From Methanofollis aquaemaris (GTDB lineage: Archaea > Halobacteriota > Methanomicrobia > Methanomicrobiales > Methanofollaceae): a stretch of 64,000 bases of DNA. The notes below the pieces were generated by a model. It saw only the letters and a list, made by a program, of their open reading frames with translations. It was not told the origin of the DNA and searched no databases. The DNA lies in contig NZ_CP036172.1 in NCBI RefSeq assembly GCF_017357525.1, positions 2,330,561 to 2,394,560 on the forward strand. Reading direction: 5' to 3'. The position numbers were made by a program, and so were the translations under genes. Below, in pieces: positions 52,645-60,252 of this stretch (position 1 is the stretch's first letter; each line of letters begins with the position of its first letter).

Positions 52645-53848
52645 TTAGACCATCATGGCAAGTGTCACGACATCGTCGTAGTCGATTTCGCCGTTGTTGT
52701 TGAAGTCGAAGAGTGCAACCAGGTTGTTCTCCTCGATCCACTGCATGTTTGCGAAGAAGGCGACGACGTCGTCATAGTCGATGATACCGTTCCCGTTGAT
52801 GTCCTCGTACTTCCCGTCGCCGTTCGGGTCGGTCGGTGAATTCTCGTAACCCGGGAACGGCGGCGGCGGTGTGATGGTGATGCTGGCCGGCGTGGTCGGC
52901 GGGTCGAATGCCGCACCGCCGTCCGCGTCCATCACCCGCACTTCAACCTGAAGTTCGGCAGTCCCTGCTCCCATCCCCTCGATGGTCACCGTCCCGAGCG
53001 TCACGTTGGTGGCGCCGGCCTGGACCGTGTCGTTGAGGTCGACGGCACTCATCCATGCCGTGGAGTTCGGGAGCAGCGATGTCTCGTTGAAAAGCGCCCA
53101 TTCGGGGAAGGTGATCGCGGTGATGTTTGCGGTGGCCGGGTCGCTGACTGTCAGGTTCAGGGAGTACCCGGCCAGTCCCTCGTCCGCCGAGGCGAGGACA
53201 AGGTCGAGGGTCGTGACGTTCCCGACCGGGACCGAGATGACGGACGGCCTGAACGAGAGACCGACGAGCGGTACCTCGCCGACGGTGATGTAGGCCTCTT
53301 TGACCATGGTGTCGGTCTCATTCATCTCGTCGGAGACGGTGAGGCTGACGGTGTAAGTCCCGGCATTCTCGTAGGTGTGGGCCGGGTTCTGCTCGGTCGA
53401 GTTGGTGCCGTCGCCGAAGTCCCACTCCCACGCAGTCACGTTCCCGGTCGAGAGATCGGTGAAGGTGACGGCAAGGGGTGCGTCCCCGCTGGTCATGTCG
53501 GCCTCGAACTCTGCGGTCGGTCCGACCGGCGGCGGTGCTACGCCTGAGACGTTGATGTAGTCCTCCTTGACCATGGTGTCGGTCTCATTTGCCTCGTCCG
53601 TGACGGTGAGACTGACGGTGTAGAGTCCCGCCTCCTCAAAGGTGTGGACCGGATCCTGCTCGGTTGAGTTGGTGCCGTCACCGAAGTCCCACTCCCATGC
53701 GGTCACGTTCCCGGTCGAGAGATCAGCGAAGGTGACGGCAAGGGGTGCGTCCCCGCTGGTCATGTCGGCCTCGAACTCTGCGGTCGGTCCGACCGGCGGC
53801 GGTGCTACGCCTGAGACGTTGATGTAGTCCTCCTTGACCATGGTGTCG
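52645..53848 (-). CDS. C-terminal fragment: PKD repeats, cohesin-like domain, dockerin
   Basis: In-frame remainder of the split gene after the extra base. It resumes at ETDTMVKEDYINVSG, then has two complete PKD domains with the FGDGTNSTEQ loop, a cohesin-like domain (EGLAGYSLNLTVSDPATANI, TFPEWALFNETS) and a terminal pair of calcium loops (DPNGDGKYEDINGNGIIDYD and FDFNNNGEIDYDDVVTLA). An apparent N terminus further upstream (to 53949) is out-of-frame sequence and not part of the natural protein. No start codon with a ribosome-binding site is seen, so it may not be translated on its own. Confidence 0.5.
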
Positions 53849-53851
53849 GTC

Positions 53852-54823
53852 TCAATTTGTCTCGTCCGTGACGGTGAGACTGACGGTGTAGAGTCCCGCC
53901 TCCTCAAAGGTGTGGGCCGGATCCTGTTCGGTCGAGTTGGTGCCGTCACCGAAGTCCCACTCCCATGCGGTCACGTTCCCGGTCGAGAGATCGGTGAAGG
54001 TGACGTCGAGCGGTGCCTCACCCTCGGTCATGTCGGCCTCGAACTCTGCCGCAGGTCCGGGTGCCGGCCCGCCGCTCACCATGATGTAGTCCTCTTTCAC
54101 CAGGGTGTCGGTCTCATTCATCTCGTCCGAGACAGTGAGGCTGACCGTGTAGATCCCGCCCTCCTCGTAGGTGTGGACCGGATCCTGCTCGGTCGAGTTG
54201 GTGCCGTCGCCGAAGTCCCACTCCCACGCGGTCACGTTCCCGGTCGAGAGATCGGTGAACGTGACGTTGAGCGGCACGACGCCGACCGTCACGTCGGCCT
54301 CGAAGTCGGCGGCAAGTCCGGCCGGCGGCATCTCACCGGTGACATTCAGTTCGCCCGGCACCACGGTGGCGTTGTACAGCGTCCCGTTGACGTCTTCGAT
54401 CGCCTCAGGGGTGACATTGATCGCGCTCATCCCTTCGGCGTCACCGCGTACGGTGACGGTGCAGAGCGTGATGTTCGTCTCACCTGCGAGTTCCTCGGGA
54501 TCGAATGCCTGCGCCCAGACGGTGTCTGCAGGCAATGATCCGTTCTCGGGCTCAAAGGCCCAGTCCGAGAAGTTCAGATCTACGATCTCGCCTATCTCCG
54601 GGTCGTCGATACTGATGGTGATGTTGAAACCTGCCAGCCCCTGTGGGGCCGCGTCCAGAATTACTGCAATGTCTGTGGTCTCGTTGAGCATCACCTCAGC
54701 CGATTCGGGCATGAGCATGATGGAGACTGTCTCATTCCCCTGGTCCTGTGCCAGGGCCCCCTGTGTCCCGAAGACACAGAGGATAACGATGCCGAGAAGC
54801 GGCATAATACGCTTCACGTTCAT
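53852..54823 (-). CDS. N-terminal fragment: signal peptide, cohesin-like domain, PKD repeats
   Basis: A 323-residue product ends prematurely at the frameshift. Signal peptide MNVKRIMPLLGIVILCVFGT (cleavage near GALAQ), cohesin-like domain (residues 30-160; GLAGFNITISIDDPEIGEIV, DLNFSDWAFEPENGSLPADT), then one complete PKD domain and most of a second that stops at VTDETN. It would be secreted but lacks the dockerin that the full protein carries. It begins eight bases after the stop of the anchored cohesin gene. Confidence 0.7.
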   Translation of the reverse strand: MNVKRIMPLLGIVILCVFGTQGALAQDQGNETVSIMLMPESAEVMLNETTDIAVILDAAPQGLAGFNITISIDDPEIGEIVDLNFSDWAFEPENGSLPADTVWAQAFDPEELAGETNITLCTVTVRGDAEGMSAINVTPEAIEDVNGTLYNATVVPGELNVTGEMPPAGLAADFEADVTVGVVPLNVTFTDLSTGNVTAWEWDFGDGTNSTEQDPVHTYEEGGIYTVSLTVSDEMNETDTLVKEDYIMVSGGPAPGPAAEFEADMTEGEAPLDVTFTDLSTGNVTAWEWDFGDGTNSTEQDPAHTFEEAGLYTVSLTVTDETN

Positions 54824-54830
54824 CTTTTCT

Positions 54831-55553
54831 TCACTCCTTCTTCTCCCTCGTTATGAATCCGAATATCAGGGCCGCTATCATGAGGACGATCAGGAAAGGC
54901 GAGGCCCCCTGGGCCGGAGTCGTCTCTTCCGGAGTCCCGGTCGCGGTGGACGGCACTTCAGACGTCGTCACGGTCTGGGTGCTCTCCTCGGTCGGCGTCG
55001 GTTGCGGCGTGGTCACGGCCGCGGCCGGCACGCTGCTGCTGCCCGAACTCCCGGAGTTCCCGGAACTTCCAGATTGAGATTCCGACGCAGACCCGATCAT
55101 AAGGCCGGTCTTCACCTCGGAGATCTGATAACTCGTGCCTGTATCGTCCTGGACTCTGACCGGGGCGATCACCAGGTCGGTCGGTCCTCCCCTGATCCCT
55201 CTGAGCGTGATCGTGCCGAGGGCGACGCTTGTACCGTTCCCCTCGGCTCGATCTCCAAGGTCGACTCCCTCGATCCAGGTCGCTCCGGCCGGGACCGCCC
55301 CTCCGCGGTGGAGGGGGGCCCAGGCGGGGAACGAGACCGCCGAGATCTCGGCGCAGGCGGGGTCGGAGAGCGTGACGGTGAGGTTGTACCCGGAAAGTCC
55401 GTTCTCGGCCCCTTCCAGGGTGATGGGAATTTCAATGCTCCCTCCCACCGGCACGTTTCCAGGGTCCCCTACCCTGAGTTCGGGAGCGGCCTGGCAGGCC
55501 GCAACAAGGCCGACGATGGCGATCAGCCAGATGACATATCCAAGACCCTTCAT
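54831..55553 (-). CDS. Membrane-anchored single cohesin-like domain protein
   Basis: Protein of 240 residues: N-terminal signal (MKGLGYVIWLIAIVGLVAAC, possibly a lipobox with Cys20), one cohesin-like beta-sandwich (residues about 25-160; GLSGYNLTVTLSDPACAEIS, AVSFPAWAP), a Ser/Gly/Thr/Pro linker of about 55 residues, and a C-terminal membrane helix followed by REKKE. The tail resembles archaeal sorting signals but has ASPF rather than PGF. It overlaps by four bases the end of the protease gene before it. Neighbours on both sides end in dockerin-like loops, so it looks like a minimal anchoring scaffold; binding is inferred. Confidence 0.8.
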   Translation of the reverse strand: MKGLGYVIWLIAIVGLVAACQAAPELRVGDPGNVPVGGSIEIPITLEGAENGLSGYNLTVTLSDPACAEISAVSFPAWAPLHRGGAVPAGATWIEGVDLGDRAEGNGTSVALGTITLRGIRGGPTDLVIAPVRVQDDTGTSYQISEVKTGLMIGSASESQSGSSGNSGSSGSSSVPAAAVTTPQPTPTEESTQTVTTSEVPSTATGTPEETTPAQGASPFLIVLMIAALIFGFITREKKE

Positions 55554-58021
55554 TGTTGCACCATTCTGTAGAGCGTGTTCACGTCACTGAACCCGATCCT
55601 GCCGTTTTTGTCGAAGTCAAACACTTCGAGCGGCTGATTGTCCCTGATGAACACCAGGTTTCCGGCGTAGACGGTGACGTCCTCCATCGTGAGGACGCCG
55701 TCTCCGTCGACGTCCTCGTAGAGGCCGTCGCCGTCCGGATCGGTGGGCGGAGGATAGGTGCCCCCGTCAGGCCGCGGGAAGGGCCTGACCGGAGCGGACA
55801 TCACCATGAGACGTGCAGGAGTGATCTCCAGCACGTACTCTCCTTCGCCCGGGCCGGTCACCCGGGACTCAGGGCCGGCCGCGACATCGGTCGTCCCGGC
55901 CGCATCGCCCCGCACCGTCAGGGTGCAGAGGGCGACGCCGTCGGGCTGCGAGCGCGGCGGTTGGCCGGTCGCGTTGATCCTGACCGTGTCGGCAGGCAGG
56001 GCCGTGTGCTCCTCTTCCTGTACCCATCCGGGGAACGAAACCCCGGTGATCTCCCCGACCGCCGGGTCGGAGAGGGTGGCCGTGATGCTGTACCCCAGGA
56101 GCGCGGCGGGTGTGCGGTCCATCGTCAGCCCGACCTCCGCCTCCTCCCCTGCCCGGACCTCGGCCGCGGCAGGGACAAAGAAGAGCGAGAGGTTGGTCGG
56201 CGATGCAGAGAGGGCATCGAACATCGAGAGCGCATCCGCCCTCCCATGCCCATAGACCGGATCCCATCCGGGTTCTCCCAGGTCGACGGCCGTCTCGTAG
56301 AGGGCCTCGCGCACCCCGGCAGGGGACGTGTCCCTCCTGATGCCCCACACCGTCGCGATGACCCCCGCGACCGCCGGGGCTGCTGCGCTCGTACCATAGA
56401 ACTGTTTCCCGAAGCCGCCGGCACCGGTGATCTGCGTCCTGTCGAGGCCGCAGATGTCGGGTTTCGGCCGCACCTCGAGGGCGGGCCGGGTGATCGTCGC
56501 CGGCCCTTCCGAGGAGAAGATCTCGATCTCGGTCGGGTCGTCGGCCCTGACCGCCCCTACGGCGACCACGCCGGGCACCGCCGGGTGGCCGAAGACGGCG
56601 TCCCCAGGCGTGGCGGCCGGATCGTCGAAGAAACCGCCGGTCGGGATGAAAATTTCGAGCGTGTGCGGCTCACCGTCCTGGAGGGCGACCGACAGGTAGA
56701 CCACACCCGGTTCGTCGCCGAAATACTCGACTGCGATCTCCTCCATCGGGACATCGTCGCCGTCCTGGACCATTGAACTGTTCGCAATCTCGACAAAACG
56801 GTTTCCTTCCTCGGTGAGCAGGAACAGGTCGTAGTCGCTCGACGCCCTCCCCCAGGGTTCGTCCCACTGGAGGAAGATCTGCAACAGCCTGCTCTGCGTT
56901 CCCTCGGCAGGAGGCTCGACCACGGCCCTGATGAGGTTGCTCCCTTCGCTGAAGAGGTGGGAACCCCGGCCGTCGTCCCTGAAGACTCCTTCGTAGTGCC
57001 CCAGGGCATCGTTCCCTGCGGCTGAGACATAGATGAGATCCTCGGTCTCCACGACGTCGTGCACGTACGAAGCGACGTACCCGTCCTCGAAGTACGGCTC
57101 GTCGAACCACCCGATGTCGTCGCAGACAATGTCGCACCCGGCCTCGACCAGGGCTGAGATCGCCGTGACAAAGGTGAGTTTGTTGGGCAGGCCGCTGTGG
57201 AAATAGAGGTCTGCTCCGGGCGCCGTGTCATGGACGACCTCGAGCATGGCCGTGCCCTCGTCTATGCCTTCGATGTCGTACAGCACCCGGACGGTGGGCG
57301 GCAGGTCGCCCGAGGCCACCGCCTCCCGCCACTGGTCGGCACTGTCCGAGACGATCCCGACCTTCATCCCTTCGCCGCCGTAACCGGTCTCGGCACGCAC
57401 GGCTGCGGTTTTGAGGATCACATCGCTCTCACTTGCGATCGAGCCCGCATAGACCACCGGAGAAGTCACGCTCTCGATCCGCCTGACGTCCGTAAGGGAC
57501 GCAAGATCGCAGAGCCGGTCTATCCTCACCCATGCCGCCGCGACATGGCGCTCCTCGTCCCGGTCGGTGACCCCGGCATAGGGGTCGACGACACGGGTCG
57601 ACACCCCATCCTTGAGCCAGACATAGACATAGACCTGGAGCGCTCCATCGCTCGTATGGGCGGTCGAAGGTTCAGGGAGTGCAGGGACGAACTCTGCCGC
57701 GGGCCCGGCGGGCGGTGCGGCGCGCGTCGTCACGGCCGACCCGTGTTCCTGACCTGCCCGTGCGAGCCGCACGAGTTCGGTCGGGAGTTTCTCCTCTGCG
57801 GCTGAGAGTCCGGACTTGAACGTCCTGCTCTCGTTTCTCATCGAGATCGAGAGATCCGGACCTGTGTCTGCGGCCGGAGCCAGCGCGGCCCCTCCTGCAG
57901 TTTCGTCCTGAAGACCCGCGCCATGGGCCAGAGCCGGGCAGCAGAGGAGCACCATCGCTACGGCGAGCAGCGCTGGAACTCGTACAAACCCGACGGTCAC
58001 AGGACCCCCCCTTTCCTTCAT
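55550..58021 (-). CDS. S8-like protease with Glu in place of catalytic His, cohesin-like and dockerin modules
   Basis: Secreted protein of 823 residues. Signal segment VPALLAVAMVLLCCPALAHG near residues 15-35; subtilase-like domain about 190-610 with Asp226 (GIVSDSADQW), Ser545 (YGTSAAAPAVAGV), and Glu255 in DEGTAMLEVVHDTAPGADLY where classic subtilases read HGT. Aligned on the APGA segment, Glu255 falls where sedolisins carry their catalytic Glu, but their nearby Asp is Met here. A cohesin-like domain (about 620-760; LLGYSITATLSDPAVGEITG) and dockerin-like loops (DPDGDGLYEDVDGDGVLTME, FDFDKNGRIGFSD) follow. First gene of the operon; a TATA-like AGTTTAAATAG lies at about 58177-58188. Activity is uncertain. 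Confidence 0.82.
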   Translation of the reverse strand: MKERGGPVTVGFVRVPALLAVAMVLLCCPALAHGAGLQDETAGGAALAPAADTGPDLSISMRNESRTFKSGLSAAEEKLPTELVRLARAGQEHGSAVTTRAAPPAGPAAEFVPALPEPSTAHTSDGALQVYVYVWLKDGVSTRVVDPYAGVTDRDEERHVAAAWVRIDRLCDLASLTDVRRIESVTSPVVYAGSIASESDVILKTAAVRAETGYGGEGMKVGIVSDSADQWREAVASGDLPPTVRVLYDIEGIDEGTAMLEVVHDTAPGADLYFHSGLPNKLTFVTAISALVEAGCDIVCDDIGWFDEPYFEDGYVASYVHDVVETEDLIYVSAAGNDALGHYEGVFRDDGRGSHLFSEGSNLIRAVVEPPAEGTQSRLLQIFLQWDEPWGRASSDYDLFLLTEEGNRFVEIANSSMVQDGDDVPMEEIAVEYFGDEPGVVYLSVALQDGEPHTLEIFIPTGGFFDDPAATPGDAVFGHPAVPGVVAVGAVRADDPTEIEIFSSEGPATITRPALEVRPKPDICGLDRTQITGAGGFGKQFYGTSAAAPAVAGVIATVWGIRRDTSPAGVREALYETAVDLGEPGWDPVYGHGRADALSMFDALSASPTNLSLFFVPAAAEVRAGEEAEVGLTMDRTPAALLGYSITATLSDPAVGEITGVSFPGWVQEEEHTALPADTVRINATGQPPRSQPDGVALCTLTVRGDAAGTTDVAAGPESRVTGPGEGEYVLEITPARLMVMSAPVRPFPRPDGGTYPPPTDPDGDGLYEDVDGDGVLTMEDVTVYAGNLVFIRDNQPLEVFDFDKNGRIGFSDVNTLYRMVQQ

Positions 58022-58303
58022 GACCTCTCCGTGGACTGGAAGGCAGCCTCTGGTCTCTCAGGTCTGCTGGCGGGTGATCACCTCGATGCGGCGTCTGTGC
58101 AGCCGTGTGATTCCCATGTCGGTTGAATAGGCGTTGTGCTCGGGCCTACCATCCAGTGTGCTGTATACCTGAGGAAATACTATTTAAACTTTGTCTACCC
58201 GCAGGAGGGGAGACGAAGCGGTATTTGGCCGGAAATATCGGGACAGCGAGGGACAGAGAGATTTCTCTCTCTATATGGACCTGCAGAATGTTCGGTCTTT
58301 CTG
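58022..58303. other. Spacer between thrS and the surface-protein operon
   Basis: Upstream region of the protease operon on the minus strand, with a TATA-like TTTAAATA at about 58180-58187, implying a leader of about 130 bases. AGAGAGA-TT-TCTCTCT at 58255-58270 is a small perfect palindrome of unknown role. No gene seen. Confidence 0.45.
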
Positions 58304-58309
58304 AAAAAA
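58304..58309 (-). terminator. T6 run after thrS
   Basis: Six T residues on the minus strand about 40 bases after the thrS stop codon; a plausible end of the topA-GGGPS-trmJ-dcd-thrS transcript. Confidence 0.45.
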
Positions 58310-58350
58310 GTATGAGATCTGGCCGATCCCTCCTGAAGAGAGATAAGCCT

Positions 58351-60183
58351 TCAGATGAAGCGCGGTCTCCGGGTGAGGTTTTTCGGGGTGTAGATCGGCC
58401 TGACCGGCTTGCCGGCACACTCGTCCTGCACCGCGGCGACGAGTTCTTCCGCGGTCATCTCCTCTTTGTGCGGCTTCTTCGGCTCGGAGAGTTTCCTGAC
58501 CGTGACGGTGAGTTTTCCTTCCTCCATCTCGCGGTCGCCGATGACGGCCACGTAGGGCACCCACTCGGTCCCGGCGGCACGGACCTTCTTGTTCATCGAC
58601 TCGTCGCGGTCGTCGACGTCGGCCCTGACGCCGGCGGCGGTGAGTTTCCGGCAGAGTTCCTCGGCATAGGCCACATGACGCTCGGCCACCGGCACAAAGC
58701 GGACCTGGGTCGGGGAGAGCCAGGTCGGGAGGCGGGGCACTGCCTGGTAGGCGGTGTTCTCGAGCATCGCGCAGATGACGCGCTCGATCGAGCCGGTCGG
58801 GGAGCAGTGAAGGATCGGCGGGTGGACATCTTCGTTGTCGGCACGGTACGAGATCTCGAAACGCCTGGAACTCTCGACATCGATCTGTACGGTCGGGTTC
58901 TCGATCGGCCGGCCCTGCCCGTCGATCGCGGCGAGGTCGATCTTGGCGATCCAGTAGTGGACGCGGTCGGAGAGGATCTCGACGAACAGCGGGACGCCCG
59001 ACTCCTTCACGATCTTCTTGACCCAGTCCTCGTGCTCGTTCCAGAAGTCCTGGGTGCAGCGGAAGGCGCCGACGAGCGGGGTCTCCAGGTCGCGACCGGT
59101 CTGCCAGCCCATCCGGAGCTGCTCCTCGAAGCATGTGAGGGCGTTGTCCATGTCCAGACAGAGGGTGTGCATGTCGGGCATCGTGAAGGCCCGCAGCCTC
59201 TTGAGCCCGATCACCTCGCCGCGCTGCTCGTGCCTGAACGAGTAGGTGGAGAGTTCGTACATCTTCATCGGGAGGGTGTTGGGGGAGATGTGCATGTCCC
59301 GCATGAAGGAGAACATCCCGAAGCAGGCGGCAAAGCGGAGCATCATGTTCCGGTTCCCGCTCTTGAAGCGGTACTGCCGCTCGCCGAACTTCGCGGCATG
59401 CTCGGAGATCGCCGGGTCGGCGAGGTCGTACATCACCGGGGTCTCGACCGGCATCCCGCCATAGTCGAGGACCAGACCCAGGACATAGTCCTCCAGAAGG
59501 TCGCGGACGAGCCTGCCTTTCGGCATCCAGCGGAGGTGACCGACATCCGAGGCGGGCTCGTAGTCGACGAGTTCCTTGGAGCGCATCAGGTCGACGTGCA
59601 CCGGTTCGCCGCCTGCCGAGGTGGGCTTGCCGAGTTCTTTCCTGACGAGCGCACCGAAGGCGGTCTCGTCACAGCAGGCCTCGGCGTCCAGACGCTCACC
59701 CTCGGGGGTGAGGACGAAGAAGGTGTGGGTGACCTCTTTCTTGGCCGGTTTTGCCTCCTCGCTCCCGCCGGGCACGATGGTCCTGGAGAGTTCTGAGAGA
59801 GGGTGGCCCTTGCACGAGAGGGTGAAGGCCTTGTACCAGCCGAAGGGCGCGCGCTTCACGGTGAGACCGATGGTCTTGAGCCCTTCCTCGATCTCCTGGA
59901 GAGCCTTCCTGGCGGTCTCCGGTTTCGAGAGGTCCGCGCTCAGATGAGCGTATGGATAGACGAGCACCCGCTCGGTCTTGAGCTGCTCGGCGGTCTTTGC
60001 GATCTCCGCGACCGCCTGGCCGATGACGTCCTCGATGTCCTCTTCGTCGATTGATTCAACAGCACAGAAGGCGACGAGGGCCTCGTCGAAGGCGTCCTCA
60101 AGGACCGCGCCCTCTTCCGCGACCGGCGTCTTTTTCTGCGCCTGGTAGTCGATATGGTTAGAATGAATTAAGAGAAGCCGCAT
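58351..60183 (-). CDS. thrS: Threonyl-tRNA synthetase, archaeal type
   Basis: Charges tRNA-Thr; 610 residues. The N-terminal archaeal editing domain (D-aminoacyl-tRNA-deacylase-like; [38 protein letters not shown]) is followed by the class II catalytic core ([78 protein letters not shown]) and a C-terminal anticodon-binding domain ([20 protein letters not shown]). ATG 60183 matches the family start and has AAGGGG upstream; an in-frame ATG at 60252 is rejected. Last of five same-strand genes. Confidence 0.95.
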
Positions 60184-60252
60184 GGAATACCCCTTTTCGT
60201 TTCTGGATCTCCGTAGATATTTTTCCGTCCCTCTATTTATGCCTTCGAACAC

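Follow-up and report, generated by a model that had tools for sequence, protein, structure and literature searches.

In Methanofollis aquaemaris (genus Methanofollis, order Methanomicrobiales), the minus-strand ORF 58021-55550 encodes an 823-aa protein that is probably a secreted, subtilisin-fold serine peptidase acting through a predicted Ser545-Glu255-Asp302 triad. Positions are those of the window, the whole 64,000-nucleotide stretch of DNA that was analysed, and the features are collected in Table 1. An initial annotation had placed a subtilase-like protein with a Glu in place of the catalytic His at 55550-58021, and both points are borne out by the PF00082 match and by the alignments described below. 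Its suggestion of an alternative triad is also supported, with the acid at Asp302 and not at the Asp226 that had been named.

Table 1. Features of the protease gene and its neighbour, in window coordinates
Feature	Position	Strand	Basis
Whole gene: secreted subtilase-cohesin-dockerin protein, 823 aa	55550..58021	-	ORF
Propeptide-like domain, residues about 120-186, beta-alpha-beta-beta-alpha-beta (putative role)	57464..57664	-	AlphaFold2 secondary structure, pLDDT
Subtilase catalytic domain, residues about 195-606	56204..57439	-	PF00082 53.1 bits (cut-off 21.8); fold match Z 35
Ser225, aligned with subtilisin Asp32	57347..57349	-	alignments, codon
Glu255, aligned with subtilisin His64; predicted general base	57257..57259	-	conservation, alignments, codon
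Asp302, aligned with subtilisin Ser125; predicted triad acid	57116..57118	-	112/112, alignments, codon
Asn337, oxyanion-hole residue (subtilisin Asn155)	57011..57013	-	110/112, codon
All-beta insert of ~130 aa, lying between Asn337 and Ser545 and containing the invariant Trp386	56597..56986	-	conservation, model
Ser545, nucleophile (subtilisin Ser221)	56387..56389	-	112/112, codon
Cohesin-fold domain, residues 608-750	55772..56200	-	AlphaFold2 pLDDT 83.9; cohesins top the fold list, Z 13.9
Dockerin-like EF-hand pair, residues 768-820	55562..55720	-	PF00404 15.3 bits, under the cut-off of 22.9
Next gene, 4-bp overlap: cohesin-like domain and C-terminal hydrophobic segment (possible anchor partner)	54831..55553	-	

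The protein opens with a hydrophobic segment, a signal peptide by inspection, followed by the propeptide-like domain, the subtilase domain with its long insert, the cohesin-fold domain and a weak dockerin. In the AlphaFold2 model residues 187-194 form a low-confidence linker at the junction between the propeptide-like and catalytic domains, the region in which self-cleavage would be anticipated. A sequence search found no PDB relative for the cohesin-like domain and a profile gave weak matches only, unlike the fold search, which detected cohesin relatives of residues 608-750. The six further matches to the whole protein in the genome (one contig of 2,746,416 bases) all correspond to the C-terminal part, residues 607-821. 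The nearest named relative, among the best 80 of 433 loci, is Methanofollis sp. STE_20, at 81% over the catalytic domain.

The assignment of the active-site residues was made with two independent alignments. A profile of 78 sequences was searched against PDB sequences, aligning Tk-SP, mirolase and BPN', and a second alignment of 64 rows included 13 classical S8 and 11 S53 sequences. In the profile alignment ‘viSDg’ falls opposite ‘IIDTG’ in Tk-SP and ‘VIDDG’ in mirolase, and the His-Gly-Thr box in BPN' is matched by ‘dEGtA’; Ser225, and not Asp226, therefore occupies the place of the catalytic Asp and Glu255 that of the catalytic His. Similarly, ‘vIvDDvg’ aligns with ‘VINMSLG’, which puts Asp301 at subtilisin residue 124 and Asp302 at Ser125, and the 64-row alignment agrees. 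The codons verify Ser225, Asp226, Glu255, Met259, His264, Asp301, Asp302, Asn337 and Ser545; Glu255 lies within DEGTAMLE, and Ser545 within GTSAAAP, the normal motif that the initial annotation had recognized. Membership of S8 is indicated by the PF00082 score and by all 78 aligned members matching at E<=0.01. Both Asp32 and His64 of S8 enzymes are absent, and the equivalents of Ser221 and Asn155 are present. Two comparisons with sedolisins made in the initial annotation also hold: Glu255 stands in the Glu column of the 11 S53 rows, and the column of the second sedolisin acid, four residues further along the Glu helix, is occupied by Met259 (M 99, L 7 and I 6 of 112 homologues).

Conservation was counted over 112 distinct homologues (124 before duplicates were removed), leaving out domains that cover fewer than 300 profile positions (e.g. 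L006, L033/L093, L081 and L034-L037). Ser545 and Asp302 are each present in 112/112, Glu255 in 111/112, and Asn337 and Asp265 each in 110/112, while position 225 is Ser in 106 of 109. Glu255 is thus not a chance change, given its retention in all but one distinct homologue; Asp302 and Asn337 are additions to the residues that the initial annotation had named. Most loci were collected by scanning with peptide patterns, which spanned residues 259-267 and 541-550 and so included Ser545 in one pattern, with residues 255, 302 and 337 outside both. Among members found by an HMMER-scored search, Glu255, Asp302, Asn337 and Ser545 are found in 43/43, and among those found by pattern, Asp302 and Ser545 in 77/77, Glu255 in 76/77 and Asn337 in 75/77. 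The best 80 of 433 confirmed relatives represent 17 named phyla. Two members depart from this pattern at 255 or 337, namely L099, with Tyr337, and L109, with Ala255 and Asp337; these may be inactive copies or misaligned.

Relatives outside the family were drawn from weaker profile matches at 17 archaeal places and from a search of 119 genomes belonging to one bacterial phylum. With three short ORFs of L163, L171 and L172 left out (a longer L163 ORF was retained), 26 were usable. His stands at position 255 in all 26 and Asp302 in none; Asp32 is kept in 21, and Trp386 of the inserted domain in 26/26. At the three positions 18 relatives read Asp/His/Ser (19 with L145 realigned) and two read Asp/His/Pro, and in five Asp32 is lost or unaligned with the His retained. 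L145 had first appeared to be a mixed state with Glu at 255, but realignment reads Glu-Val-His-Gly, with the His present, and the first reading was an alignment artefact. Across 146 rows the Glu state and the Asp302 state coincide, the sole exception being L109, in which Ala255 accompanies Asp302. The nearest His-bearing S8 relatives (e.g. L137, L138 and L162) have the fold, the insert, Trp386 and the equivalents of Asn155 and Ser221 in common with the family, but carry Asp32, His64 and Ser125 where the family carries Ser225, Glu255 and Asp302. Comparison of the two patterns therefore links the changes Asp32 to Ser, His64 to Glu and Ser125 to Asp, with Ser221 and Asn155 unchanged. Separately, four relatives that are haloarchaeal-type as judged by sequence (L148, L149, L152 and L153) have Gly or Ser for Asp32 with His64 retained, show an Asp that is conserved where subtilisin has residue 124 (VVVDAGSYF, VIVDSGSYF), and are possibly a further triad variant.

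Trees were built with columns 225, 255, 259, 301, 302 and 337 masked, from 24 family rows (thinned from 62 representatives), all 16 representatives of the relatives, 13 S8 rows (2 of 15 removed as near-duplicates) and 11 S53 rows (2 of 13 removed likewise, the 13 being those of 20 loci that passed a motif filter). Both the family and S53 form single clades with support of 100/100, so it is well supported that the Glu/Asp state arose once within the family. In the best tree the family joins the insert-bearing His relatives with support of 93/94. An origin as a true S53 offshoot whose acid has moved is conceivable but unlikely; being a claim about ancestry, it is compatible with the Ser545-Glu255-Asp302 triad. 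The Glu base would fit such an origin, as would the AU tests, which do not reject a joint clade with S53: they gave p 0.442 for the careful tree (a difference of 1.7 log units) and p 0.742 for the quick tree, where the constrained tree led by 12 log units. The short spacing after the base is shared too: 13 residues separate the base from the AP motif in 24/24 family rows (57221-57259, minus strand, in the window), 16/16 relatives and 8/11 S53 rows, compared with 18-31 in the 13 classical S8 rows, and may hint at sedolisin kinship. Against this, the long insert and Trp386 are common to the family and its His-bearing relatives, the best tree unites these two groups, the oxyanion residue is the subtilase-like Asn and not the sedolisin Asp, and no match to the Pro-kumamolisin activation domain (PF09286) was found in the protein at E<=1. 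The spacing between the Asn155 and Ser221 equivalents is 195-274 residues in the family (median 210), 167-224 in the His-bearing relatives (median 189), 62-194 in classical S8 and 117-153 in S53 (median 134). Independence from the sedolisins rests on the shared insert, the oxyanion Asn and the position of the acid rather than on the tree. The proposal of the initial annotation that the protein is intermediate between S8 and S53 peptidases is not supported, since the acid lies at neither family's place, the residue in the oxyanion hole is the S8 one, and in the trees the 93/94 grouping with the relatives stands beside an AU test that does not reject a joint clade with S53.

The AlphaFold2 model of residues 112-606 has a mean pLDDT of 93.0 and a pTM of 0.83, and places Ser225 at the end of a strand, Glu255 at the start of a helix, Asp302 directly after a strand and Ser545 at the start of a helix. 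The top VIA match was Tk-SP (Z 35.5, rmsd 2.0 over 265 residues); the top 50 VIA-align matches were all subtilases with no sedolisin among them, a ranking that excludes nothing. The top Foldseek match was CspB, and Csp proteins, including the pseudoprotease CspC, were among the best matches. According to PMC3567191, CspB carries an N-terminal prodomain and, within the protease domain, a jellyroll insertion of ~130 aa, in both of which the present protein resembles it, but its triad is classical and superimposes on those of other subtilases, in contrast to the one predicted here. The presence of CspC in this company, together with the loss of both Asp32 and His64, is what would recommend an inactive, peptide-binding scaffold of the CspC kind, which the initial annotation had also considered. 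Such a scaffold is quite unlikely because almost no variation is seen, over many phyla, in the nucleophile, the oxyanion Asn, Glu255 or Asp302; the new acid is fixed, and decay would not fix three new residues together.

A Ser545-Glu255-Asp302 peptidase thus remains the preferred reading, and on the alignments the likeliest triad acid is Asp302, which lies on a different strand from the Asp32 place. In savinase, as tabulated in PMC11593635, the Ser125 O is 3.2 Å from His64 CE1 and the Ser125 OG is 2.8 Å from Ser221 O; because Ser125 makes these contacts, an Asp at its place would be within reach and is a plausible new partner. Section 2.4 of the same source puts the triad acid on its own segment in S8 and on the segment of the base in S53, and Asp302 would lie on a third, ‘CHO’, segment. 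Use of the adjacent Asp301 instead is very improbable: it is conserved as D in 107 and E in 4 of 112, but one member has Ser, and it corresponds to subtilisin residue 124, whereas it is the neighbouring 125 that adjoins His64 in the tables of PMC11593635. An Asp-Glu-Ser triad whose acid is Asp226 or another Asp close to it is scarcely credible, for although Asp226 adjoins the Asp32 position and is D in 91 of 109, it is N in 16 and T in 2, and the alignments place Ser225 at Asp32, so the normal catalytic Asp motif read here by the initial annotation does not stand. A hidden triad His at His264 (VVHDTAP), which the initial annotation had named as a possible refutation, was also rejected, as this position is Tyr, Gln or Phe in 10/112 members and His in 9/26 relatives alongside their own catalytic His.

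In the proposed mechanism, the propeptide would guide folding and then be removed, probably by self-cleavage. Glu255 would act as the general base and take the proton of Ser545, and the resulting oxyanion would be stabilized by Asn337. In sedolisins two acids share a proton; here the pair would be Glu255 and Asp302, the latter standing in for the lost Asp32. Because Asn donates hydrogen bonds without acid pH, the enzyme may depend less on acid conditions than the sedolisins do, which is offered as a prediction only. It is quite possible, though we would stop short of calling it probable, that a His-bearing subtilase with the insert became a Ser-Glu-Asp enzyme in one ancient change, through coupled replacement of Asp32 by Ser, His64 by Glu and Ser125 by Asp, independently of the sedolisins, giving a third working layout of the subtilisin fold that keeps the oxyanion Asn and may be active close to neutral pH.

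The cohesin and dockerin modules would tether the enzyme in a cell-surface complex with neighbouring proteins. Beyond the overlapping cohesin-like gene lies one encoding a PKD/cohesin-like/dockerin protein, and the order threonyl-tRNA synthetase, protease, cohesin protein, PKD protein (54831-60252 of the window, minus strand) is conserved in L038, and in L010 and L011 as far as their stretches extend; in L009 both genes downstream of the protease are present within the stretch compared. Given the overlap with the cohesin-like gene, the adjacent PKD/dockerin protein and the conserved order, the protease is likely part of a surface complex with these neighbours, held by a putative cohesin-dockerin pairing. 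The PKD/cohesin-like/dockerin gene (52645-54823, minus strand) reads as two overlapping ORFs in different frames with a break near 53853, either in the organism or in the sequence.

The abstract of the 2007 survey by Siezen, Renckens and Boekhorst (Proteins 67:681) reportedly describes a sedolisin-like subset of subtilases in which a beta strand, and not the Glu helix, bears the catalytic Asp at a topologically similar place, a proposal said to come from homology modelling only. The present family is most likely this E-D-S subset, whose Glu, as in sedolisins, and strand Asp, as reported, would fit Glu255 and Asp302; because of the fit of the strand Asp, the active-site group was probably predicted before. 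In the papers searched, no experiment on a subtilase with a Glu base and a strand Asp was recognized, and a search for the CDD name cd05562 found no paper. The 2007 survey, which deals with subtilase subfamilies whose catalytic residues differ, is cited by several papers. A member of another of its variant subsets (E-H-S), SprP of Pseudomonas aeruginosa, is active and Ser-dependent according to PMC3937732; there the acid alone is changed (Glu for Asp) and the His kept, whereas here both are changed. The S53 sedolisins and kumamolisins resemble the family in having Glu at the His64 place, a lost Asp32 and a Ser nucleophile, but according to PMC11593635 their acid lies at +4 on the same helix and their oxyanion residue is Asp, at which places Met259 and Asn337 are found here.

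Annotation of such proteins needs correction, as the S8 model matches them despite the missing Asp32 and His64. If the enzyme is active, the subtilisin fold has a third site available for the triad acid, and the family together with its insert-bearing, His-bearing relatives would form a natural before-and-after pair for the replacement of a triad without loss of function.
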